A stretch of 44,181 bases of DNA from Candidatus Melainabacteria bacterium GWF2_37_15 (GTDB taxonomy: Bacteria > Cyanobacteriota > Vampirovibrionia > Gastranaerophilales > UBA9971): assembly GCA_001784565.1 (NCBI GenBank), contig MFRL01000016.1, positions 1-44,181 on the forward strand, written 5' to 3'. The position numbers and the translations under genes are program-made. Position 1 is the first letter of the stretch, and every line of letters begins with the position of its first letter. The notes beneath the pieces are model-generated. The model worked only from the letters and a program-made list of their open reading frames with translations. It did no database searches and was not told the DNA's origin. This document shows, in pieces, positions 5,714-42,464 of the stretch.

Positions 5714-5956
5714 ATTTCCCTTCAGCCCTTCTATGGTGTGTAATTAAGTAAAGATATAAATATATTATAACATATATATCCATGTATTTCATTAAGGTTT
5801 AATATAAATATGGATTATATGCCTGCCCCTACAATAATAAGGTGCATTTATGCACTCTACAGTTTCTACAGTGTCCCTTTACTCATATATTTGTATGATT
5901 TATAAGAAATTTTATTAATTTATTAAAGTTTCGGAAAAACCTGCCGAATATATTAA

Positions 5957-5980
5957 TTAGTAAGGCCATTTTAAGACCAT
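5957..5980 (-). CDS. Possible 7-codon peptide (MVLKWPY)
   Basis: In the first repeat copy an AGGAGG lies 7 nt before ATG and opens M-V-L-K-W-P-Y-stop. The two later copies keep these seven codons but continue to 18 codons. The coding claim is weak because all copies lie in duplicated DNA. Confidence 0.15.
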   Translation of the reverse strand: MVLKWPY

Positions 5981-6007
5981 ACTAAAACCTCCTCCCCGAG
6001 TCTAGTT

Positions 6008-6033
6008 GCCGCTCCACAAGGCGGCTTTTTTTT
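6008..6033 (+). terminator. Terminator in repeat copy 1
   Basis: GCCGC (6008-6012) pairs with GCGGC (6021-6025) across an 8-nt loop, followed by eight T residues. No gene lies just upstream on the plus strand, so the transcript it ends is unknown. Confidence 0.65.
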
Positions 6034-6043
6034 GTGTAAAATC

Positions 6044-6196
6044 GTCATTCTGAGGGCTAAGCCCGAAGAATCTATCCAGCGTGGCTTATAAACTGTGGGC
6101 TTTCAGCCCACTTATATAGATTCTCACGTCGGGCAAAAAACAATTAATTATCTTAAATCTTTAGATAATTAATTGTTTTGCCCTCCTCAGAATGAC
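6044..6196. mobile_element. MITE-like nested palindrome, copy 1
   Basis: The ends are inverted (GTCATTCTGAGG at left, CCTCCTCAGAATGAC at right). Inside are further perfect or near-perfect hairpins: GGGCT/AGCCC, AGAATCTAT/ATAGATTCT, GTGGGCT/AGCCCAC and a long AT-rich AACAATTAATTATC/GATAATTAATTGTT. There is no ORF. This build fits a non-autonomous miniature element or a REP/BIME-type repeat. No clear target duplication was seen. The TCTATCCAGCGTGGCTTATA part recurs, inverted, near 16018-16041. Confidence 0.7.
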
Positions 6197-6285
6197 AATT
6201 TGGGGTAGGGTTGTGCTACAAAGTGATTGATTTAACAATTTGTTTTAATATTTCTTAATAATTAGGAAAAAATATATAATTTTTC

Positions 6286-6342
6286 CTAAAGTTTGATGAA
6301 AAATTTCCGAATACTAATAATGTAAGGCCATTTTAAGACCAT
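6286..6342 (-). CDS. Possible 18-aa peptide in repeat copy 2
   Basis: AGGAGG stands 7 nt before ATG, followed by MVLKWPYIISIRKFFIKL and a stop. The copy at 6648-6704 is identical because of the tandem duplication. The spacing to the ribosome site is ideal, but there is no independent evidence of translation. Confidence 0.2.
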   Translation of the reverse strand: MVLKWPYIISIRKFFIKL

Positions 6343-6369
6343 ACCAAAACCTCCTCCCCGAGTCTAGTT

Positions 6370-6395
6370 GCCGCTCCACAAGGCGGCTTTTTTTT
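6370..6395 (+). terminator. Terminator in repeat copy 2
   Basis: This is the same GCCGC/GCGGC stem and T run as at 6008-6033, shifted by exactly 362 bp. Confidence 0.65.
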
Positions 6396-6405
6396 GTGTA
6401 AAATC

Positions 6406-6558
6406 GTCATTCTGAGGGCTAAGCCCGAAGAATCTATCCAGCGTGGCTTATAAACTGTGGGCTTTCAGCCCACTTATATAGATTCTCACGTCGGGCAAAA
6501 AACAATTAATTATCTTAAATCTTTAGATAATTAATTGTTTTGCCCTCCTCAGAATGAC
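6406..6558. mobile_element. MITE-like nested palindrome, copy 2
   Basis: The second copy of the 153-bp element at 6044-6196 matches it by eye. It was duplicated with the surrounding 362-bp unit rather than by independent insertion, because the flanks are duplicated too. Confidence 0.7.
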
Positions 6559-6647
6559 AATTTGGGGTAGGGTTGTGCTACAAAGTGATTGATTTAACAA
6601 TTTGTTTTAATATTTCTTAATAATTAGGAAAAAATATATAATTTTTC

Positions 6648-6704
6648 CTAAAGTTTGATGAAAAATTTCCGAATACTAATAATGTAAGGCCATTTTAAGA
6701 CCAT
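6648..6704 (-). CDS. Possible 18-aa peptide in repeat copy 3
   Basis: The sequence and ribosome site match those at 6286-6342. It would be divergent from the DUF151 gene, whose start lies 84 bp away. Confidence 0.2.
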   Translation of the reverse strand: MVLKWPYIISIRKFFIKL

Positions 6705-6731
6705 ACCAAAACCTCCTCCCCGAGTCTAGTT

Positions 6732-6757
6732 GCCGCTCCACAAGGCGGCTTTTTTTT
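6732..6757 (+). terminator. Terminator in repeat copy 3, just upstream of the DUF151 gene
   Basis: A GCCGC/GCGGC stem with eight T residues ends 30 nt before the DUF151 start codon. It would insulate that gene from upstream transcription or act as an attenuator. A -10 box downstream of it (6778-6783) favours insulation. Confidence 0.65.
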
Positions 6758-20026: not shown

Positions 20027-23000
20027 ATGCAAAGGGAAACTTTACTGAGAACGATTATAGAAAATATAAGAAGTTCCCTTGATGTTAATGAGACTAAAAA
20101 AAATATCGTTACCCAGATTGGACAGGCTTTTAATGCAGATAGGTGCTTTATAGCATTACTTGATGTGCAGCAGGATAAGTTTGTAACTCCTGATAAATAT
20201 GCTGAATATTTATCTTCCCCGGAGTTATCAAGCGTGGTTGGGATTAAACCTGATGAAGAAATTCATGAACCTATTATAAAACTTGCAAAAGAAAAAAAAG
20301 ATAACATAATCTATGATTTTGAAAAAAAAATTATAGAAAATCCGGCGGAAAAAGAATTTTTGGAAGGATTAAAGAGATATTATAATGTAAAGTCAGATTA
20401 TGGAGTGAATATATGTTATGGAGGGGTTTATTTAGGAGCAATAGTCCTGCATTATATGAAGGCTCCGCGTTATCTAAATGACGATGATATAAAATTTTTA
20501 AAAACTATAGCTGACCAGATAGGAATAAGCCTTCATCATGCTCAACTTTATGAAGATTTAAAGCAAAAAGCTGAAAGAGAAGTTTTTTTAAGAAAAATCA
20601 CGGAGTTAATCAGCAGTTCATTGGATATTGATGAAATTGAAAATCAGATAGTAACTAATGTTGGGAGATTATTAAAAGCTGATAGGGTTTTTATCATTAA
20701 TTTCGATAAATCAAAAGGAGGGTATTTCCCTGTAGAAAAAGAGTACTTATCTTCAAAACAAATAAAAAGCATGAAAGGGCATGAACCGGAGAAGGAGGTT
20801 CCTGAACTTATAAAAGTTTTAATGAGTGATTGCGATTTATCTATTAATAATGTGGAAGAATACATAAAAAATAATAATCTCCAGGGCTCCCTACTGGAAA
20901 AGCATTTTAATTTTTATGATATAAAATCAGGCTTTTGTATTTCCATGGTTAATGGTGAAAAACGTATAGGAAGGCTGGTTGTTCAGTCATGTGAAAAAAT
21001 TAATTTTTTCACAGAGGGTGATATTGAATTTGCAAAAATAATTGCTAATCAGGCCGCTATGGCCATGTCCCAGGCTGAATTGTATGAAACTCTAAAACAA
21101 ACAGCAGAACGGGAGCGGCTTTTACGAGATCTTATCCAGACCATAAGAAGTAGTTTTGATATTAATGAAACTAAAAAATTACTTGTGGATAAGATTGGTA
21201 AGTCACTTAATGCAGATAGAGTTTTCTTTGTTGAATATAATCCTGAAACAAATACACCTCACGTTTTAGATAAATATTCAGAGTATTTATCTTCGCCTGA
21301 CCTGGTAAGTTATGTGGGGTTTAATTTTTCTGGTCCAAAAGTTGAATTTTTGGCGAAAGAACACAAACAAAAAAAACTTATATTAGCTACAGATATTGAT
21401 GAATTTATAAAAGAAAATAATCTTCAAAATACACCAACAGAAAAATGGTTAAGGGAAGCACAATTAAAAACAGGCGTTGGTATTACTATATTTTATGGAG
21501 AGAAAATTTATGGAGTTTTGTCCATACATTTTACAAAAGCTAAAGTTCATTTAAGTGAGGAGCGGGTACAGTTTTTAAAAACGCTCGGAGATCAGGTAGG
21601 GATAGCATTTTATCAAGCAAAACTTTTTGAAAAACAAAAACAAATAGCAGATAGAGAAAGAATTTTGCGGGATTTTATAGCTACAATAAGAAGTACCCTT
21701 GATAAAAATGAAATCAAACAAAGACTTATAACTCTGGTTGGTCAATCTATTAATGCAGATAGAGTGTATATTGCTGAGTATGACAAAAAAACGGGACATT
21801 TTCCGCCTGTTATGGAAGAATACCTGTCCTCCCCAGATATAAAAAGTACTCTGGGATTCCTACCCGAAAGAGATTCTCCTGAAGGAATGGACAAAGCCGT
21901 AACACAGATTATTATTATAGAAGATACTGAAGCATGGCTTAAGAAACATAATATTGAGAACAGCAAAACAGCTGGGTATTTAAGAGAACATAATGTAAAA
22001 TCAGGATTTTCTGTGCCTTTATCATACGCAGGTGAATTTCTCGGCACAATACTTATTCATTATACGGGAGGGCCGAGAGCTTTTATTACGGAAGACGTGA
22101 AATTTGTAGAAACTCTAACAGACCAGACAAGTATAGGTCTTTATCAGTCGCAATTATTTGAAACTATACAAAAAACGGCTGAAAGAGAACGACTTTTAAG
22201 GAATTTAACTGCAACTATACGAAGTAGCCTGGATATCAATGAAGTTTTATCTGTAATCTGTGAACAAATTGCAAAGGTATTTGAAGTAGATCGAATAACA
22301 ATAGTGGAATTCCCAAATAACAAAAATTATCAGGATTTTATATTAAGAAAGGAATATAAAAAAACTGAGAAAATAAAAGGTATCTATGATTATAGTAAAA
22401 GTGAACTGATTGCCGAATTCTGGGGTAAAAAATTACTGGATGAAGGAGATATATTGGCTTTTTATAACATAGCAGAATCTGATGCTCCTGAATTAATTAA
22501 AAATTTTTATGAAAAACTCGAAGTTAAGTCTATGATTGGTGTTCCTATAAGGCATGAATCTGAAAAATGGGGAATGCTTGTTTTGTCAGAATTAAATAAA
22601 TTCAGGAATTGGAATTCTGAAGAAATAATTCTTTTAAAATCAATTTCTGACCAAATATTTATTGCTATTAAACATGCCGAACTTCTTGAATCAATTAAAC
22701 AAACAGCTGAACGGGAAAAATTTCTGGCTGAAGTAATCTCCATTGTAAAAAGTACACTGGATATGGATGAAATTTTAGCGTTAATATCCGGAAAAATTGA
22801 AAAATTTTTAGGGGTTAAAAAAGTACTTATAAATGTCACCTCTGCTAAAAAAATTAAGATGATTCTGGATCCGCCAAAAATCTTGAAAAATGAAGAAATT
22901 AACCTTCTTGAAAGAATATTTGATAATATTTCCATAGCAATAAGAGACTCTGATATTTACACTAAATCAAGGTTTATAGCTGATGTTTCTCATGAACTAA

Positions 23001-23641
23001 GGACGCCTGTGGCTATTATAGACGGTTATGCAAATAACCTGATTAATAGGCAGGATTATTCCCCGGAAACTGTTGATAAATACCTGAATATAATTAAAAA
23101 AAATACGATTCGAATGTCAAATATTATAGAAAATCTTATGACTTTGTCACAGTTACAAAAAGGTGAAGAAGACTATATCATCGCATTTGAAGAAGTTAAT
23201 GCCGAAAATTTGATTAAAAATGTTGTGCAAATTCAGGAAACTCTTATAAAAGATAAAAAAATTACGTTTGAAACGCAGTGTAATGGCCAAATTACTGTTA
23301 AAGCCAATGAAATCCTGCTGGAGCAGGCATTATTGAACCTGGTTAAAAATGCTGTGCAGTACAGCAGTGATAAGTCAAAAATCATAATAAAAGCTAAAAA
23401 AACCGGCAATAATGTGGTAATTAGTGTTCAGGACTTTGGCTGCGGTATAGAAAAGAGTCATTTAAAAAACATTTTTAAGCGTTTTTACAGGGTGGATAAA
23501 TCAAGGAGCAGGGAAACCGGAGGGAGCGGGCTTGGCCTTTCTATTGTGGAAAATATAGTAAAAACACACAATGGTAAGGTTAGTGTTAAGAGTCAAGTGA
23601 ACAGAGGTTCGCTGTTTACTATTGAAATTCCCTGTTTTTGA
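20027..23641 (+). CDS. Multi-GAF cytosolic sensor histidine kinase
   Basis: This 1204-aa protein has no membrane segment. Five full GAF domains plus a shortened sixth repeat with a period near 178 residues (starts near 5, 185, 363, 543, 721 and 896). Each opens with a linker like ERERLLRNLIATIRSSLDIN and continues xxADRVFI; the first four contain an EYLSS motif. The kinase core follows: phospho-His989 in SHELRTPVAII, N box LLNLVKNAVQYS near 1101, QDFGCGIEKSH near 1138 and GGSGLGLSIVENI near 1165. No cofactor-binding Cys is obvious. Its ATG directly follows the rfbA stop. No cognate regulator is adjacent. Confidence 0.93.
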   Translation: MQRETLLRTIIENIRSSLDVNETKKNIVTQIGQAFNADRCFIALLDVQQDKFVTPDKYAEYLSSPELSSVVGIKPDEEIHEPIIKLAKEKKDNIIYDFEKKIIENPAEKEFLEGLKRYYNVKSDYGVNICYGGVYLGAIVLHYMKAPRYLNDDDIKFLKTIADQIGISLHHAQLYEDLKQKAEREVFLRKITELISSSLDIDEIENQIVTNVGRLLKADRVFIINFDKSKGGYFPVEKEYLSSKQIKSMKGHEPEKEVPELIKVLMSDCDLSINNVEEYIKNNNLQGSLLEKHFNFYDIKSGFCISMVNGEKRIGRLVVQSCEKINFFTEGDIEFAKIIANQAAMAMSQAELYETLKQTAERERLLRDLIQTIRSSFDINETKKLLVDKIGKSLNADRVFFVEYNPETNTPHVLDKYSEYLSSPDLVSYVGFNFSGPKVEFLAKEHKQKKLILATDIDEFIKENNLQNTPTEKWLREAQLKTGVGITIFYGEKIYGVLSIHFTKAKVHLSEERVQFLKTLGDQVGIAFYQAKLFEKQKQIADRERILRDFIATIRSTLDKNEIKQRLITLVGQSINADRVYIAEYDKKTGHFPPVMEEYLSSPDIKSTLGFLPERDSPEGMDKAVTQIIIIEDTEAWLKKHNIENSKTAGYLREHNVKSGFSVPLSYAGEFLGTILIHYTGGPRAFITEDVKFVETLTDQTSIGLYQSQLFETIQKTAERERLLRNLTATIRSSLDINEVLSVICEQIAKVFEVDRITIVEFPNNKNYQDFILRKEYKKTEKIKGIYDYSKSELIAEFWGKKLLDEGDILAFYNIAESDAPELIKNFYEKLEVKSMIGVPIRHESEKWGMLVLSELNKFRNWNSEEIILLKSISDQIFIAIKHAELLESIKQTAEREKFLAEVISIVKSTLDMDEILALISGKIEKFLGVKKVLINVTSAKKIKMILDPPKILKNEEINLLERIFDNISIAIRDSDIYTKSRFIADVSHELRTPVAIIDGYANNLINRQDYSPETVDKYLNIIKKNTIRMSNIIENLMTLSQLQKGEEDYIIAFEEVNAENLIKNVVQIQETLIKDKKITFETQCNGQITVKANEILLEQALLNLVKNAVQYSSDKSKIIIKAKKTGNNVVISVQDFGCGIEKSHLKNIFKRFYRVDKSRSRETGGSGLGLSIVENIVKTHNGKVSVKSQVNRGSLFTIEIPCF

Positions 23642-34966: not shown

Positions 34967-35002
34967 AATTTATTATATAATCTAACTATGCTACAGGAAG
35001 CG
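34967..35002 (+). repeat. Left copy of a 36-bp direct repeat (helicase promoter and start)
   Basis: This segment from AATTTATTATATAATC to CTACAGGAAGCG is identical to 35727-35762, 760 bp away. It holds the -10 box and the first five codons of the helicase gene. Confidence 0.95.
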
Positions 35003-35062
35003 TCAAGGGCAATTAACCCAGCTACGAAGCTTTTTTGTGTTCCCTTGATATATTTATACTAA
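34988..35062 (+). pseudogene. Remnant of a helicase-like gene 5' end
   Basis: ATG at 34988 opens MLQEASRAINPATKLF, parallel to MLQEATKAISSAFRDS of the intact helicase at 35748. After the 36 identical bases the DNA stays similar for about 25 nt with scattered substitutions and then diverges. The frame runs to a stop near 35062. It is most simply the leftover start of a related helicase allele or paralogue, with the rest replaced by the toxin-antitoxin module. Confidence 0.6.
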
Positions 35063-35342
35063 AGCCTAATTCATTAAAAATTTTAAGCATAGTATGAAAC
35101 TTAGGCTCTTTTTTGCTTTTAAACAAAGCATGTAAATGCTGTCGTGTAATTTCTGCTCTTTTAGAAAAGGTTGAAATTTTGCCCTGTGCTTTTATCAGGG
35201 TTTCCAGGCTTTTGCCCAATTCCTGAAAATCCCCTGTTTCAAGGTATTCTTCAATGCATACATTTATATATGCCTCTAAGTCTTCTATATCTTCAAAAAA
35301 CACTAAAGGGTTATGAGGTTTTGATGGTAATTTATCAGTCAT
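35022..35342 (-). CDS. HigA-like antitoxin (XRE-type HTH)
   Basis: This 106-aa protein has a C-terminal helix-turn-helix (STFSKRAEITRQHLHALFKS, then KKEPKFHTMLKIFNELGFSI), typical of the putative addiction-module antidote family. Its start overlaps the toxin stop by 4 bp (ATGA). The antitoxin is second in the operon, as in higBA. It probably also represses the shared promoter. The module lies on the strand opposite to the helicase it precedes. Confidence 0.85.
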   Translation of the reverse strand: MTDKLPSKPHNPLVFFEDIEDLEAYINVCIEEYLETGDFQELGKSLETLIKAQGKISTFSKRAEITRQHLHALFKSKKEPKFHTMLKIFNELGFSINISREHKKAS

Positions 35343-35665
35343 TTTATGCGCTCCTTATAATCATTCAAGTACTCAATGGCTTTTTTAATATCAGCAGATT
35401 GCCTATGTTTATCGCCACCTGATAAAAATAAAACTAATTTGTTATTAATATCAGAATAATAAATTCTATAGCCTTTACCAAACTTTAATTTAAGTTCAAA
35501 CAAATCTTCGTTTATTTGCTCGAATTCTCCGTAGTAACCATATTCAAGACGCTCTATTCTTTTTAGTATCCTCATTTTAGTAGTTTTATCCTTAAAGGAT
35601 TTAATCCATTCTTCAAAGGGACACTTTCCATTTTTAGTTTGGTAGTATTCAATAGTTTTCTCCAT
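35339..35665 (-). CDS. RelE/HigB-like addiction module toxin
   Basis: This 108-aa toxin of the phage-derived Gp49/HigB-type killer family has CPFEEWIKSFKDKTTKMRIL, RIERLEYGYYGEFEQI, ELKLKFGKGYRIYYSD and VLFLSGGDKHRQSADI. Members are ribosome-dependent mRNases. I chose ATG 35663-35665, because TTGAAA (35696-35701), a 17-nt spacer and TACAAT (35673-35678) place the transcript start at this codon; the frame is open to 35674. It pairs with the overlapping antitoxin. Confidence 0.87.
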   Translation of the reverse strand: MEKTIEYYQTKNGKCPFEEWIKSFKDKTTKMRILKRIERLEYGYYGEFEQINEDLFELKLKFGKGYRIYYSDINNKLVLFLSGGDKHRQSADIKKAIEYLNDYKERIK

Positions 35666-35672
35666 ATTTAAC

Positions 35673-35701
35673 ATTGTAATCTATAGAGGACATTTTTTCA
35701 A
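35673..35701 (-). promoter_or_regulatory. Promoter of the first HigBA-type module
   Basis: On the minus strand TTGAAA is followed by a 17-nt spacer and TACAAT. The -10 box ends 7 nt before the toxin ATG at 35665, giving a leaderless mRNA. Confidence 0.6.
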
Positions 35702-35726
35702 GTTTTATGGCTAACACTATATGCGG

Positions 35727-35762
35727 AATTTATTATATAATCTAACTATGCTACAGGAAGCG
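35727..35762 (+). repeat. Right copy of the 36-bp direct repeat
   Basis: This copy is identical to 34967-35002 and contains the TATAAT box and first codons of the intact helicase gene. The 724 bp between the copies is filled almost entirely by the toxin-antitoxin operon. Confidence 0.95.
35736..35741 (+). promoter_or_regulatory. -10 box of the helicase-nuclease gene
   Basis: TATAAT lies exactly 6 nt before the ATG at 35748 with no Shine-Dalgarno sequence, so the message is probably leaderless. The -35 region is poor here; the left repeat copy has TTGGCA at 34951-34956, a slightly better match. Confidence 0.55.
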
Positions 35763-38645
35763 ACAAAAGCAATAAGCTCAGCATTTAGGGACAGTTTTAT
35801 AAAACGGCTGGCCATGTATCTGCATGACTGCGTCAGTGAGGAAATAAGGTCTTGTGCATTTAAAAACCTCAACCAGGATAAGACAAATAAATGGTTTTTC
35901 CTGGAAGATCAGGATTACTTAAGTATTAATCCCGACAAGCCGCTTAAAATTAAAGGTTCAGATAGTAAATTAACAGAATTAATGGTGCAATCCGATGCTT
36001 CACGCAAGGATTACCAGTTAATATATGGGTTCTTGTTTTTAAAAGGCAGAAGCAGGAAAAAGGAAGACTTTCTTACCCCTTTGCTGTATATGCCATGCAG
36101 GCTTGAAAGAGACGGCATGGATATTAACTGCATACTTCAGGACGATTATTTATCTTTAAATACCAGCGCGTTGGTCAGTTTGATGGAGTTCGATGAAGAA
36201 GATGAAACAGCAGAGCATCTTTTAGATGGAATCATTGATTATATTCCGGAAATGCCGTTAACCAGGGAAAAAATAGACATTTTCCTCAATACATTAAGAG
36301 TTGTTATTCCTGATGATGAAAATCTTGTTATTACCGAGGATTCTGCTGTTGTTCTGACAAAAAGGCCTGCTGTGCTTGCGGGGTTGTTACATGAATTAAG
36401 CGAGATATCTGAAAAGCCTGTGGGCGTGTTCAGGGAAACAGCTCTTTCGCCTATTCATGAGGAATTTTCAGGTGCTACTAAAAACAAGAAGCAAAAATCA
36501 AATGAATCTTCCGAAAAATTACCAGTAACTCCGTTGGATTTAAGCGAAAGCCAGAAACAGGTAATTGAAGAGCTTAAACATAATACGCTGATTACTGTTT
36601 TTGGCCCGCCGGGAACAGGGAAATCACAGACCATAGCAAATATTGCATCTCATTTAACGGGTTCAGGCAAGACAGTGCTTATTGCATCAAAAATGGACAA
36701 GGCAGTGGATGTTGTAAGTGATCGACTGAACGGCTTTGGAGCAAAATTTTTGTCTATGAGGGCAGGCAAACCCGACTATCAAAAGCAGTTAAGTTTCCAG
36801 TTGCAGGATTTAATCTCAAATAAAATTGACCTTGATTCAGGAATTGAGAGTGCTGTGCTGACTGAAATTGACGATCTTAAGCTGGTTCTTGATAATAAGC
36901 AGGAAATAGAGGAAAAATGCCAGGAAATTTTCAGGCTTGAGAGTGAATGGTATAGCGTTTTTCTGGAATACGAAAAAATAAGCACAGATGAAAAGCTGAT
37001 AAATGTTTCTTTAACTGGGCATGAAGTAGGTTATTGCCGCAATTTGCTGGATAAGATAGAAAATATTTGCGAAAAACAAGGGATAATAAATACCCTGCAT
37101 TTAAAAGCATTGAGTTTCCTGCTTAAAAACAAGTTAAAAATCGAAATCACCACAGAAACAATGCCACACATAAGGCAGGATTTAAACGCAATTGAATTAA
37201 AGGAAAAACTTAAAAAAATTGAGATAAAAATCTCGAAAAACGGCAATATAACACAGAATTTTGAGAATTTAAAAGAATTAAGACAGAAATACAAGCAAAC
37301 AGCAATAGAGATACTTAAAAACAAACGAAGAAACGCGCTTAAAGCTCTTATACGGGATCAGTATAAAAGGCAGCGGTTGATAATACATTCTAAAGCGCTG
37401 GTAGAAAGAAAGAAAAACCTGCAAAGCAGGGTGCTTTTTAATGAGGATTTTGCGCCATTGCTGGAGGCATTCCCATGCTGGGCAGTCACAACGCAGGCCG
37501 TGTCAGAATCCCTGCCGCTTGAACCCGGATTGTTCGATGTTGCCATAATTGATGAATCCTCTCAATGCGACATAGCAGGCTGCATTCCCATACTTTTCAG
37601 GGCAAAAAAGGCAATTATTGTGGGCGATGACAAACAGCTCCCGCATTTATCCTTTCTTGAAAAGGCAAAGGAGCAGTCGTTCCTGAATAAATACAATATG
37701 CCGGACAAGTACCAGCTTATGTGGCGTTACAGGACGAATTCCATGTTCGATGTAGCCCATTATTACGCTACATCCAGTGTGCTGCTTGATGAGCACTTCA
37801 GGAGTTATCCTGAGATTATTGAATTCAGTAATAAAGAGTTCTATGGCAGCAGGCTAAAAATAATGAAAAGGCAAATCTCTGTTGACAAAGTAAGCTGTGT
37901 TGAGCTGAATGTGCTGGAAAATGCCAAGGTTGATCTTGATAGTACTAGAAATATGGCAGAAGTAGAAAAAATCATTGATAGAGTCCACCAGATAATACAG
38001 GAAAATGAAAACGGTTCTATAGGTATAATTTCCCCATTCAGAGGTCAGGTAGAGCTGGTCAAAAAAGCGCTTTATCAGGTATTTACAGGTGATATTATTA
38101 AAAAATACCAGATTGAAGCTGGAACAGCTCATACTTTTCAAGGCGATGAGCGGGATATTATGCTTTTATCCTTCACAGTTGCTCCAAACAGCCATTATCA
38201 GAGTATTACATTTGCGCAAAAGCCCAATTTATTTAACGTTGCAATAACAAGAGCCAGGAAAAAGCTTATATGTTATATTTCAAGGCCTGTTGAAACACTC
38301 CCTCCCGGCATATTAAGAGATTATCTTGAATACATACAGACTGTAAGCCAGAATATAAGTACAATAGAGTCAGTTGATCCAGTTAAATGCGAAATTAAGC
38401 AGTTATTGGAAAATGAAGGCTTCACAGTATTAAATGATATTAAAATTGGCGCTTACACAGTAGATTTTCTTGTTTCAAACGGTGATAAAGCGCTTATACT
38501 AGAAACAGTCGGTTTTGAAAACAAGGAAGTACTTGGGAAACACCAGACACTTGAACGCTGCGGCTGGAAATTAGCTTATATCACGTCAAGAGAATGGAGT
38601 TACAGCAAAAAAGCCTGCATCAACAAGATAAAGGGACTATTGTAA
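35748..38645 (+). CDS. Superfamily 1 helicase with C-terminal nuclease-like domain
   Basis: This 965-aa protein has an unassigned N-terminal 265 residues. An Upf1-like SF1 helicase follows: Walker A GPPGTGKSQTIANIASHL at 286, a long charged insertion (about 370-570), Walker B IIDESSQCD at 602, VGDDKQLPHL, EHFRSYPEI, TAHTFQGDERDIML and NVAITRARKKL. Residues 880-965 look like a Vsr/DUF559-type endonuclease fold (KQLLENEGFTVLNDIKIG, YTVDFLVSNG, LILETVGFE). Such fusions are often linked to phage defence. I chose ATG 35748 over 35721 because the leaderless promoter and the upstream duplicate share it. Confidence 0.85.
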   Translation: MLQEATKAISSAFRDSFIKRLAMYLHDCVSEEIRSCAFKNLNQDKTNKWFFLEDQDYLSINPDKPLKIKGSDSKLTELMVQSDASRKDYQLIYGFLFLKGRSRKKEDFLTPLLYMPCRLERDGMDINCILQDDYLSLNTSALVSLMEFDEEDETAEHLLDGIIDYIPEMPLTREKIDIFLNTLRVVIPDDENLVITEDSAVVLTKRPAVLAGLLHELSEISEKPVGVFRETALSPIHEEFSGATKNKKQKSNESSEKLPVTPLDLSESQKQVIEELKHNTLITVFGPPGTGKSQTIANIASHLTGSGKTVLIASKMDKAVDVVSDRLNGFGAKFLSMRAGKPDYQKQLSFQLQDLISNKIDLDSGIESAVLTEIDDLKLVLDNKQEIEEKCQEIFRLESEWYSVFLEYEKISTDEKLINVSLTGHEVGYCRNLLDKIENICEKQGIINTLHLKALSFLLKNKLKIEITTETMPHIRQDLNAIELKEKLKKIEIKISKNGNITQNFENLKELRQKYKQTAIEILKNKRRNALKALIRDQYKRQRLIIHSKALVERKKNLQSRVLFNEDFAPLLEAFPCWAVTTQAVSESLPLEPGLFDVAIIDESSQCDIAGCIPILFRAKKAIIVGDDKQLPHLSFLEKAKEQSFLNKYNMPDKYQLMWRYRTNSMFDVAHYYATSSVLLDEHFRSYPEIIEFSNKEFYGSRLKIMKRQISVDKVSCVELNVLENAKVDLDSTRNMAEVEKIIDRVHQIIQENENGSIGIISPFRGQVELVKKALYQVFTGDIIKKYQIEAGTAHTFQGDERDIMLLSFTVAPNSHYQSITFAQKPNLFNVAITRARKKLICYISRPVETLPPGILRDYLEYIQTVSQNISTIESVDPVKCEIKQLLENEGFTVLNDIKIGAYTVDFLVSNGDKALILETVGFENKEVLGKHQTLERCGWKLAYITSREWSYSKKACINKIKGLL

Positions 38646-38952
38646 ATAATTTTTTTAGGAATCCCAATATTTTTGCTGCCGGTTTATGCTCTAAAGATTT
38701 ATCTCCCAGTTGGCTTAATAAGCTCTTGTTTAATTCATATTGATGTTTTGCAGCCTCTTTATGAGTTTTATTAAAACAGGCCGCATTACGTTCTATTAAA
38801 GAATGTGCTACCTTTTTGGGATCATCACCAAATATATGTAATTGATTATATTGAAGTGTATCCGGGATTTTTGATAACTTTTCAACTAATTTGTCGTTTT
38901 TTCTACAAAATCTATAGCCAAATGCTGGGCTTGTTGTTGAATTAATATGCAT
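38620..38952 (-). CDS. Orphan protein with N-terminal IN...FG motif
   Basis: I do not recognise this 110-aa protein. It starts MHINSTTSPAFGYRFCRKND and is otherwise Lys/His-rich and probably helical (KKVAHSLIERNAACFNK, HQYELNKSLLSQLGDK). AAAGGA stands upstream of the ATG. Its 3' end overlaps the convergent helicase gene by 26 bp. No signal peptide or membrane helix is visible. It shares the I-N and F-G N-terminal pattern with 30378-30848 and 42483-42842. Confidence 0.65.
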   Translation of the reverse strand: MHINSTTSPAFGYRFCRKNDKLVEKLSKIPDTLQYNQLHIFGDDPKKVAHSLIERNAACFNKTHKEAAKHQYELNKSLLSQLGDKSLEHKPAAKILGFLKKLFTIVPLSC

Positions 38953-39071
38953 AGAGTTGTCCTTTCTGTATTATTCAGGATTATTGGGTAATTTCTTGTT
39001 AATATAAGTATCCTGAAAATAAAAGTTAATAATTTGTTATTATTTTTTTTATATAACTTTACATTTCATTT

Positions 39072-39100
39072 TTGGTTCTGTTTTACTGTTCTGCTATGAT
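39072..39100 (+). promoter_or_regulatory. alaS promoter
   Basis: TTGGTT (39072-39077), a 17-nt spacer and TATGAT (39095-39100) preceded by TGC form an extended -10 promoter. The leader of about 20 nt holds AAGGG before the ATG at 39128. Confidence 0.55.
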
Positions 39101-39127
39101 AGAATAGAATTTTAAGGGTTAATAAAT

Positions 39128-41722
39128 ATGAATGGCAAAGATATAAGAAATAAATTTATACAATTTTTTAAAGATAAACACGATCATTTACATTTACCAA
39201 GTTCGTCACTAATTCCTGATAACCCAACTGTACTGCTTACGCCGGCAGGCATGTTGCAGTTTGTGCCAATATTTTTAGGGTATGAAAAGCCGCCAACACC
39301 TCCAAGAGTCGTAACAGTACAAAAATGCGCACGAGCGGGAGGTAAGGATTCAGATATAGAGAACGTTGGCAGGACACCAAGACATCACACTTTTTTTGAA
39401 ATGCTTGGAAATTTTAGCTTTGGTGATTACTTTAAAAAAGAGATAATTCCCTGGGCGTGGGATTTTGTGACCAATGAACTTAAGCTCGACAAGCAGAAGC
39501 TGTGGGTTACCATATATGAAACAGACGATGAATCCTTTGAAATCTGGCATAGAGATGTGGGAGTACCGGCAGATCGTATTCTAAGAAAAGGAAAAAAGGA
39601 TAATTTCTGGGGTCCCCCCGGGCCAACAGGGCCATGCGGGCCTTGTACAGAGATACATTATGATCTGGGTGAGGAGTTAGCCTGTGGCGAGAACTGCGGA
39701 ATTGATAATGCATGCGATTGTGACCGCTATGTAGAGGTGTGGAACCTTGTATTTATGGAGTTATACAAGGATGAAGAAGGAAACTTCAGTCCACTGGAAA
39801 AGAAAAACGTTGATACGGGCATGGGACTTGAGCGGGTAACAATGGTTGTGAATGGCTTAACTTCAACGTTTGAGACTGACTTGTTAAGCCCAATCCTTGA
39901 AAAAGTAACTGAATTATCAGGTAAAAAGTATAAAGACAATCCAAAAGAAGATATAAGCCTACGCATAATCACTGACCATGCACGCTGCGTATCTTTCCTG
40001 ATCTCTGATGGGCTTGTTCCGGGTAATGAGGGCAGAAATTATGTGCTTAGAATGATCATGAGGCGGGCGTTACGGCATGGCAAGATGCTGGGAATTGAAC
40101 TGCCATTTCTTCATAAGATTGTGGATACTATTGTAGATAATTACTGCGAAACATATCCTGAACTTAAAACCAATCAGGACAGAATAAAATCAGTTATTTT
40201 ACGCGAAGAAGAACGCTTTAAACAAACGCTCGGCCGCGGGGAAGCGTTACTTGAGGAATTAATGGCTAAATCTAACCTCATATCCGGAGAAGATGCGTTT
40301 AAACTATATGATACATTTGGATTTCCGTTGGAATTAACTGTGGAAATGGCTCAGGAGAAGAATATTAAAGTAGACATTGAGGGCTTTAATAAAGCCATGG
40401 CTGAACAAAAGGAAAGGGCCAGGGAAGCCCACACCGCTGTAAAGCTAACGGATGATCTTGTTTACAATGAAATCCTGGAGAAAGTCGGCCCTACCCAGTT
40501 TCTGGGATATGAACAAACTAAAGTGCTTGGTTGCGTTGTTAAAAACGTAATTGGAGAAGGAGATATTGTTGAAATAATCCTTGATAAGACCCCATTCTAC
40601 GCTGAATCCGGTGGTCAGGTCGGCGATACAGGTTGTATTGAAGGAACGCATTTTAAGGCGAAAGTGCTTAATACAACTAGGTTTAACGAGCTTTTTATAC
40701 ATAAAGCGGAGATATTGAACGGGGAAGCAACTGTTGACGATGTTGTAAACGCTGTTGTGGATGAAAACCGCAGAAAGCAAATAATGATCCACCACACCAG
40801 CGCACACTTATTGCAGGCAGCATTGCGAAAAGTGCTTGGTGATAGCGTGGCGCAGGCTGGTTCACAGGTGGAGCCTGACAGGACACGTTTTGATTTCACG
40901 TTTGACAGAGCCTTAACTGATAAAGAACTTGATAAAATTGAATCCTTAATAAACCAGTGGATAGAAGAAAACCACAAACGTGAAGTCACAGTAACCACCC
41001 CTGAGCAGGCAAAAGCTGCAGGCGCAATTGCATTGTTTGGAGAAAAATATGGCGATACTGTTCGGATAATAAGCATTGATAACATTAGTAAAGAACTGTG
41101 CGGAGGTACTCACACTGAATTTACAGGCGAAATACGCTTGTGTAAGATTGTTTCAGAGAGTGCTATTGCTGCAGGAACCAGAAGAATTGAGCTGGTATGC
41201 GGACAAAAGGCTTTAGAATACCTGAATGAATACCAGAAAAACCTTGAATTGATAAGCAAGCGGTTAAAAATTCCTCCAAAAGACGCGCCTGTAAGGGTTG
41301 AAAAACTACAGGATGAAATTTCACAATACCAAAAGAAAATTAGTGTGCTGGAAAGTGAGATTGCAAAGAGTAAGGCTGGATCCTTGTTTGAGCAGGCAAA
41401 AGATATTGAAGGCGGGAAGCTACTTGTTGCAAGAGTGGATGGAATTGCTCCAAATGCGCTTAAAGAAATGGTTGAGAAAACAGCAGACAAGCTAGGCAGT
41501 AGTATTGTTGTACTTGCATCATTAATGGACGGTAAAATCTCAATTATAAGTAAAATTTCTGATAATTTTGTACAAAAAGGCGTGAATGCAGGCCAGCTTG
41601 TCAATGAAATAGCTCAAAAATGTGAAGGAAAAGGCGGCGGACGGCCTAATTTTGCCCAGGCAGGCGCAACTGATGCGGCATGTCTTGATGCGGCGCTGGA
41701 GGAATTAAAGGGGCGGTTTTAA
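39128..41722 (+). CDS. alaS: Alanyl-tRNA synthetase
   Basis: AlaRS charges tRNA-Ala and edits mischarged Ser and Gly. The class II catalytic core covers residues 1-240 (FIQFFKDKHDHLHLPSSSLI, RTPRHHTFFEMLGNFSFGDY, GPCGPCTEIHYDLG). The editing domain has the zinc motifs HHTSAHLLQ and ELCGGTHTEF. The C-terminal domain ends GGGRPNFAQAGATDAACLDA. Length is 864 aa, normal. The last 90 bases recur in diverged form at 42375-42464, beyond the following HigBA module. Confidence 0.97.
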   Translation: MNGKDIRNKFIQFFKDKHDHLHLPSSSLIPDNPTVLLTPAGMLQFVPIFLGYEKPPTPPRVVTVQKCARAGGKDSDIENVGRTPRHHTFFEMLGNFSFGDYFKKEIIPWAWDFVTNELKLDKQKLWVTIYETDDESFEIWHRDVGVPADRILRKGKKDNFWGPPGPTGPCGPCTEIHYDLGEELACGENCGIDNACDCDRYVEVWNLVFMELYKDEEGNFSPLEKKNVDTGMGLERVTMVVNGLTSTFETDLLSPILEKVTELSGKKYKDNPKEDISLRIITDHARCVSFLISDGLVPGNEGRNYVLRMIMRRALRHGKMLGIELPFLHKIVDTIVDNYCETYPELKTNQDRIKSVILREEERFKQTLGRGEALLEELMAKSNLISGEDAFKLYDTFGFPLELTVEMAQEKNIKVDIEGFNKAMAEQKERAREAHTAVKLTDDLVYNEILEKVGPTQFLGYEQTKVLGCVVKNVIGEGDIVEIILDKTPFYAESGGQVGDTGCIEGTHFKAKVLNTTRFNELFIHKAEILNGEATVDDVVNAVVDENRRKQIMIHHTSAHLLQAALRKVLGDSVAQAGSQVEPDRTRFDFTFDRALTDKELDKIESLINQWIEENHKREVTVTTPEQAKAAGAIALFGEKYGDTVRIISIDNISKELCGGTHTEFTGEIRLCKIVSESAIAAGTRRIELVCGQKALEYLNEYQKNLELISKRLKIPPKDAPVRVEKLQDEISQYQKKISVLESEIAKSKAGSLFEQAKDIEGGKLLVARVDGIAPNALKEMVEKTADKLGSSIVVLASLMDGKISIISKISDNFVQKGVNAGQLVNEIAQKCEGKGGGRPNFAQAGATDAACLDAALEELKGRF

Positions 41723-41744
41723 CTTACATTTCCAATAGTGACAC

Positions 41745-41773
41745 TTGACACCTTACGTATTACGCTATATAAT
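41745..41773 (+). promoter_or_regulatory. Perfect consensus promoter of the second HigBA module
   Basis: TTGACA (41745-41750), exactly 17 nt, then TATAAT (41768-41773): both hexamers match the sigma-70 consensus fully. Transcription would start near 41780, about 4 nt before the higB ATG. Such a strong promoter presumably needs repression by the HigBA complex. Confidence 0.85.
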
Positions 41774-41783
41774 AAATATTAGC

Positions 41784-42062
41784 ATGATTAAAAGTTTTAA
41801 GCATAAAGGTTTAGAAGATTTTTTTCTAAAAGGGAGTATTAAAGGTATAAATCCTGATTACTCTAGAAAAATCCGACGAATTTTAAGCTTGCTTAATGAA
41901 GCTGAAGATGTAAATGAATTAAACTACACAGGATTTAGGCTTCATAAGCTAAAGGGTAAAATGCAAAATCTTTGGTCTGTAACTGTTAGTGGAAATTATC
42001 GCATAACCTTTGAATTTAAAGAAAAAAATGCTTATATTTTAGATTACACAGACTATCATTGA
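41784..42062 (+). CDS. higB: HigB toxin (RelE superfamily)
   Basis: This 92-aa HigB-type mRNA interferase has IKSFKHKGLEDFFLKGSIKG at the N-terminus, then GFRLHKLKGKMQNLWSVTVS with GNYRITFEF near the end, the typical signature of the plasmid-maintenance killer family. I chose ATG 41784; the frame is open to 41745, but that part is the promoter. There is no Shine-Dalgarno sequence and the leader would be about 4 nt. higA follows after 11 bp. Confidence 0.92.
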   Translation: MIKSFKHKGLEDFFLKGSIKGINPDYSRKIRRILSLLNEAEDVNELNYTGFRLHKLKGKMQNLWSVTVSGNYRITFEFKEKNAYILDYTDYH

Positions 42063-42073
42063 GGTTAAAACCT

Positions 42074-42364
42074 ATGGAAATGTACAATCCCTGCCATCCC
42101 GGCGAAATTTTAAGAGAGAAAACTCTCAAAAATCTTAATATTACTGTTACTGAATTTGCTAAACTACTCGGAGTTTCCAGGCAGGCTATTTCAGAGATAG
42201 TCAATGAAAAAAGAGGAATTAGTCCGCAGATGGCACTCAGGCTGTCAAAAGCCCTTGGCACTTCACCTGATTTATGGCTTAGGATGCAGATGTCTTATGA
42301 CTTATGGCAGGCCAAGCAGTCTATAAATCTTGATAACATCAGATTAATAAAGAAAACAGCATAA
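42074..42364 (+). CDS. higA: HigA antitoxin (XRE-type HTH)
   Basis: This 96-aa antitoxin begins MEMYNPCHPGEILREKTLK, the classic HigA N-terminus, with the helix-turn-helix in VTEFAKLLGVSRQAISEIVN and LRLSKALGTSPDLWLRMQ at the end. It neutralises HigB and should repress the promoter at 41745-41773. ATG 42074 has GAGG about 10 nt upstream; a TTG at 42059 is possible and would overlap higB. The alaS-like remnant starts right after its stop. Confidence 0.93.
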   Translation: MEMYNPCHPGEILREKTLKNLNITVTEFAKLLGVSRQAISEIVNEKRGISPQMALRLSKALGTSPDLWLRMQMSYDLWQAKQSINLDNIRLIKKTA

Positions 42365-42365
42365 C

Positions 42366-42464
42366 GGAGGCAGAGGCGGTGGCCGGCCTAATTTTGCCCA
42401 GGCTGGCGCTAGCGATGCAACGTGTCTTGATGCGGCGCTGGAGGAGTTAAAGGGACGTTTTTAG
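42366..42464 (+). pseudogene. Remnant of an alaS 3' end
   Basis: Reading from GGC at 42375 gives GGGRPNFAQAGASDATCLDA, then ALEELKGRF and a stop, against ATDAACLDA in the same place of the intact alaS. About 90 bp are clearly homologous to 41633-41722, with several mostly silent differences; upstream similarity fades near 42366. It lies directly after higA and is the far border of the HigBA insertion. It has no start codon of its own. Confidence 0.9.

Follow-up and report, generated by a model that had tools for sequence, protein, structure and literature searches.

Toxin-antitoxin modules bracketed by duplicated gene ends in Candidatus Melainabacteria bacterium GWF2_37_15 and its relatives: probable insertions with long target duplication

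Toxin-antitoxin (TA) modules in Candidatus Melainabacteria bacterium GWF2_37_15 and in other genomes of its order were repeatedly found between two copies of the end or start of a neighbouring gene, and they are probably insertions with a long target duplication, with a likely extra step at alaS. The analysis started from the window, which is the whole stretch of 44,181 nucleotides that was analysed (contig 16 of an assembly of 2.27 Mb in 102 contigs), and was extended to relatives labelled Candidatus Gastranaerophilales, Caenarcanum and similar, bacteria from gut and environmental habitats. The signature is confirmed as real, recurrent and associated with TA modules, and recombinase-free chromosomal movement of TA modules would have left a readable footprint at between about one in five and one in four of the examined loci, in three unrelated families.

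Duplications in the window and borders of the inserted unit

As had been claimed in the preliminary description, each of the two modules in the window (Table 1) lies between an intact gene and a diverged copy of the end of that gene. The helicase pair (34967-35022 / 35727-35782) covers 56 nt at 89% identity, and the alaS pair (41626-41721 / 42368-42463; E=3e-27 in the self-comparison) covers 96 nt at 85% identity, or 97 nt counting the last base of the stop codon. The 36 identical base pairs described earlier at the helicase start were recovered as the first 36 nt without mismatch, and the similarity extends to 35022, where the antitoxin stop codon also ends; the alaS duplication was recovered likewise, its start being moved from 41633 to 41626. 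The host gene is whole both times, with the SF1 helicase gene reading from 35748 and alaS intact over 39128-41722. By profile matches, the module next to alaS is a type II TA module of the HigBA type, with a HigB-like toxin (PF05015) followed by HigA (TIGR02607), each scoring above its cut-off and predicted to be mRNA-cleaving and neutralising, respectively, and the module next to the helicase gene is an HI1419/HI1420 TA module, its toxin (TIGR02683) and antitoxin (PF21716) both scoring above the cut-off. Exactly two ORFs, both of TA genes, and no other gene-like ORF lie between the copies at each module. No recombinase ORF was found in these two inserts, no inverted repeat pair around either module was detected by the repeat search, and no tRNA lies at these sites within the window.

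Table 1. Coordinates of the two modules, their host genes and the duplicated gene ends in the window
Feature	Position	Strand	Basis
Helicase 5' end, vestigial copy	34967..35022	+	21 nt leader, ATG and 32 nt coding, MLQEASRAINPA; repeat search, relatives' N-termini
HI1420-type antitoxin	35022..35342	-	PF21716 34.3 bits, above curated cut-off; TIGR02684 31.9 bits, below its cut-off of 53.7
HI1419-type RelE/ParE-superfamily toxin	35339..35674	-	Start 35665 or 35674; TIGR02683 104.6 bits, cut-off 62.85
Helicase 5' end, intact copy of duplication	35727..35782	+	Repeat search
SF1 helicase, MTES_1575-like C-terminus, intact host gene	35748..38645	+	AAA_11/AAA_12; matches in 39/40 genomes searched
alaS, intact host gene	39128..41722	+	PF01411, E=4e-200; matches in 28/30 genomes searched
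alaS 3' end, intact copy of duplication	41626..41722	+	Repeat search
higBA promoter region, left unit edge	41723..41783	+	TTGACA ... TATAAT-like; read from sequence
HigB toxin	41784..42062	+	PF05015, E=2e-20
HigA antitoxin; stop codon is right unit edge	42074..42364	+	TIGR02607, 122.3 bits
alaS 3' end, vestigial copy including stop codon TAG	42368..42464	+	Repeat search, tblastn

Similar borders recurred among the loci. On the promoter side the repeat mostly stops just short of a TTGACA...TATAAT-like promoter, with 22-95 nt left to the first start codon, and on the far side it mostly begins between 11 nt inside and approximately 24 nt past the last stop codon. In alignments of HigBA modules from different sites, homology typically begins at about -35 relative to the toxin start and runs up to the stop codon of the antitoxin gene; the modules of loci L113 and L114, for example, are 85% identical from -35 to 0. 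If only the module is under functional constraint, its edges could look somewhat sharper in such alignments, and the borders are therefore taken as good evidence of a compact unit, not as proof of defined ends. No recombinase gene was found within the bracketed segments examined and no shared terminal sequence was seen in the junctions compared.

Recurrence of the flanking repeats and the gene ends involved

The main sample consisted of 114 HigB (PF05015) and HI1420 (PF21716) loci of the same order from sampled genome stretches, and a locus was taken as positive when a direct repeat of at least 36 bits spanned the module. Such a repeat was present at 24 of the 114 loci, approximately nine of which (L116, L117, L121, L129, L149, L150, L157, L199 and L211) involve terminator hairpins or possibly dispersed repeats and two of which (L226 and L252) represent one insertion shared by two species, leaving independent clear gene-end cases at about half of the 24. 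Among random control positions it was far rarer (12 of 794), and the alternative raised in the preliminary description, that partial gene-end repeats are equally common away from TA modules, did not hold. Repeats also bracketed 4 of 14 loci of HepT/MntA, a third and unrelated TA family, and none of 30 acetyltransferase (GNAT) genes used as a control. Pooled, 28 of 128 TA loci were positive. The enrichment over random positions had a Fisher p of approximately 1e-16. Similarity of the left and right flanks was found at 26 of the 114 loci, compared with 38 of 7952 cross-locus pairs within the family. No repeat was detectable at approximately 77-79% of the TA loci.

The repeats are very improbably a product of chance, dispersed intergenic repeats, tandem paralogues or assembly error. 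Such origins are seen among the positives themselves, since the control positives include exbD and flagellin paralogues and one REP-type transposase, and some of the TA positives are terminator hairpins; however, the excess at TA loci given above, the coding gene-end repeats in several genera, the insertion common to two species (L226/L252) and the same structure in many separate assemblies all speak against them. The exbD loci L158 and L174 were rejected as paralogues, not insertions, as was a HigBA-like tandem pair with 73% identity (L171 50-1940, G000:C46), and L167 was left off the list of gene ends since its left copy may be an antitoxin gene start.

Among HigB loci the positives depended on the clade (14/46 vs 2/36, p=0.005). 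In HigB records from viral contigs, repeats were found in 3 of 51, all three with one near-identical repeat, and no sign was seen of the repeat signature as a general property of phage-borne HigBA.

The length of the repeat varied by locus from 22 to 195 nt and the identity of the copies from 79 to 100%, the latter being consistent with insertions of different ages. The duplicated 3' ends belonged to alaS, a CorC-type transporter gene (L113), ribBA (L155), dnaE (L152), dus (L226/L252), rmlD (L175) and glmS (L328), and the duplicated 5' ends or promoters to the helicase gene, a heptosyltransferase gene (L172), a hybrid kinase gene (L138), L118 and the rplC promoter (L322), with the names glmS and rplC taken from reading of the translated ends, not from profile matches. 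These target genes are mutually unrelated and often essential. The preliminary description had proposed a search of the same genome for further TA modules with partial gene duplicates, and at least two more were found, bringing the cases in this genome to at least four: alaS, helicase, a heptosyltransferase start around HepT/MntA (L172 3139-3192/3845-3898, 54 nt, 98%) and an RmlD-type gene end (L175, 26 nt, 96%). For dus and rmlD, the intact copy does not just restore the old end; the reading frame continues to a new stop codon adjacent to the module.

At L172 (2854-3898, G000:C99) the HigA stop codon overlaps the start of the next gene (TAAATG), and HepT/MntA was apparently inserted later between HigA and that gene with the 54-nt duplication, which would make the TA insertions nested; the last codons of HepT are provided by the target sequence. 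In the same genome, a coaE-like gene start is duplicated without a difference over 34 nt (L173 1718-1751 / 2068-2101, G000:C57) around a non-coding insert of 316 nt, so that the same signature is present with no recognisable TA genes.

Three points would agree with site-specific integration by an integrase or Xer-type recombinase using gene ends as attachment sites, like genomic islands, Tn7 and dif modules: the 3' end of a gene is a classic place for an attachment site, one of the targets is the 3' end of glmS, and two non-sister HigBA pairs adjoin alaS 3' ends. This explanation is nevertheless hardly credible, because the inserts in the window are without a recombinase ORF and the repeats differ in sequence and length at each locus and include gene starts and promoters. 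Tn7 inserts downstream of glmS with a 5-bp duplication, whereas the glmS repeat found here consists of 38 bp of the coding end. The dif (pdif/XerCD) modules of Acinetobacter plasmids are small units, some of them with TA genes, that are mobile without a recombinase gene of their own; they are bounded by recognisable dif sites, whereas the repeats found here differ at every locus and, being locus-specific gene ends, were judged not to be 28-bp dif-like sites at both ends. An integrase gene with a recurrent attachment core, as in integrase-type islands, was not found either, nor were the terminal inverted repeats, constant short duplication and transposase of transposons and insertion sequences, the duplications being 22-195 nt with only TA ORFs inside.

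In the genome G005, a different HigBA pair lies directly after alaS (L032 4894-5463), and its toxin frame has an in-frame TAA and may be decaying. A common origin of this pair and the alaS-linked pair in the window was not supported by the HigB tree (few columns), which keeps the two HigB proteins apart, and HigBA therefore probably arrived twice at alaS 3' ends.

Empty sites and origin of the second copy

Single-copy sites were found in relatives. In one genus (g15), HigBA follows dus in two species and the vestige runs on into the native downstream sequence; three module-free genomes (G046, G126 and G021) have a single dus end. In another (g5), HigBA lies upstream of a kinase gene in G004 (L138) with a duplication of 195 nt at 97% identity, and the relatives G007 and G009 have a single start of the kinase gene and no module. 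For the window, the module-free genome G003 has only one alaS end in the order alaS-hyp133-TPR, and the preceding gene (gene438) is followed directly by the helicase gene, with a single gene end, in G002; these two comparisons are at family distance, no same-genus genome having been found, and the events in the window are not datable or polarisable from them. No usable orthologous empty site was found for L224, L256 and L200. Module-free relatives that keep both gene-end copies, which the preliminary description had named as evidence against its proposed route, were not seen among the genomes compared.

The same description had suggested recombination with DNA of a related strain as a possible route of entry, and this reading is favoured only at alaS. 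The alaS copies differ at 15 of 97 nt, with 12 of the 15 differences at third codon positions (p=0.014 when compared with the other pairs; p=0.006 under an assumed drift expectation of 0.45), and the extra copy encodes the AlaS tail almost unchanged; the copies accordingly diverged while both were under coding constraint. This bias runs against plain duplication followed by decay of the vestige and suggests a donor end, or a later allele exchange with a related strain. From each relative, the distance to one alaS copy is about the same as to the other. Pooled over the other coding pairs, 12 of 30 differences fall at third positions, which is consistent with decay of one copy. At L138 the extra copy matches the start of the host's own gene at 97% identity and the gene starts of congeners at approximately 73%, which weakens the donor route and points to duplication in place or to a same-species donor. 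The copies were also near-identical in other young cases (100% at L118, L116 and L152; 98% at L172).

Carriage of the gene end is thus rather unlikely as the general explanation. In this reading, a single crossover of a circle, or homology-facilitated illegitimate recombination, would bring in the module together with a related strain's homologous gene end, and one copy would be foreign from the outset. In homology-facilitated illegitimate recombination (e.g. PMC3240628), a homologous anchor and an illegitimate joint could put a module beside a second gene end. In favour of gene-end carriage, besides the third-position differences and the conserved tail at alaS, the vestigial helicase copy, which reads MLQEASRAINPA, is near the relatives' MLQEATKAINSA, and the interiors of the TA modules in G041 and G091 appear to be exchanged while the ends are alike. 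On the other side, the young copies are identical or nearly so (97-100%), the L138 copies resemble each other much more than they resemble those of congeners, no clear third-position bias was found outside alaS, and gene-end carriage gives no reason for a unit edge at the antitoxin stop codon. A foreign second end is indicated at alaS only, and most pairs are without such a sign. The HigBA modules of G041 and G091 (L226/L252) occupy the same site; their ends are near-identical and their interiors divergent, as would result from a recombinational exchange of the interior, and recombination thus appears to reach these loci.

Relation to restriction-modification (RM) gene insertions and a proposed route

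The preliminary description knew of no described mechanism with this signature, and a precedent does exist: insertion of RM genes with long target duplication was described in Helicobacter pylori (Nobusato 2000, via PMC3874152 and PMC1643837; Furuta 2010, with PMC3031569 as a further source). According to these three articles, RM insertions have long direct target duplications of variable size (on the scale of 100 bp), are linked to no known mobile element and were recognised against empty sites. RM genes form the other class of addiction modules and are functionally related to TA modules. Compared with the RM insertions, the addiction-type cargo, the long variable direct repeats (22-195 nt here) and the single-copy empty sites (G007/G009; G046, G126 and G021; G003 and G002) are shared, whereas the present cargo consists of TA modules, from three unrelated families, in place of an RM complex, the duplication often covers a gene end with the host gene left whole, and the promoter-to-stop borders are tight. 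As the cargo is TA and not RM, the present cases are a variant of insertion with long target duplication and not a plain member of it. Copies that are identical at first would be expected for such insertions; the young cases have copies of 97-100% identity, and alaS has copies of 85% identity with a third-position bias. The gene content and order of HigBA (PF05015 and TIGR02607), HI1419/HI1420 and HepT/MntA modules were matched by profile, and no report of gene-end duplication flanking them was seen among the papers retrieved. The novelty suggested here is the known RM-type insertion signature with TA modules as cargo, by which TA modules are linked to the insertion signature of RM genes.

For the insertion with long target duplication, the following route is proposed. 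A compact TA unit, consisting of a promoter and two genes and ending at or near the stop codon of the second gene, would enter the chromosome and leave 22-195 bp of the target on both sides. Where the duplication runs across a gene start or stop, the gene would be completed by one copy while the other persisted past the module as a vestige; insertion there would thereby be tolerated, and selection would keep the events that span the gene end. The joining was probably carried out by host recombination, repair or template switching on the incoming DNA, a host process being the likely agent given that the signature occurs in three unrelated TA families and that no recombinase is encoded in the inserts examined. 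At alaS, a related strain was probably either the donor of one end or the partner in an exchange of it. The excess at TA loci may reflect survivorship, in that recombination between the repeats would remove the module, an addiction module would punish its loss and the footprint would stay; if so, TA loci record a generic insertion process that is quickly erased in other DNA. The coaE-like case without TA genes (L173) fits a generic process, and the clade bias of HigB fits it less well. It is unlikely that the TA operons of this order are instead minimal mobile cassettes of approximately 620 bp from promoter to stop, moved by a dedicated insertion process that duplicates 20-200 bp and favours certain TA clades, and are not passive cargo of generic recombination. 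With a footprint, sharp unit borders and empty sites that can be found, the question of how chromosomal TA modules move without a recombinase is testable by comparative genomics.

Two further features of the window were recorded. A non-coding tandem array at 5916-6757, with a unit of approximately 362 bp and a conserved block (aaggccattttaagaccata ... hairpin and T run) in three copies, resembles a repeated small-RNA or leader element, and the Rfam search of these repeats (5.9-6.7 kb) gave no family above the gathering score. An ORF of 1204 amino acids at 20027-23641 contains internal repeats with approximately 70% identity.
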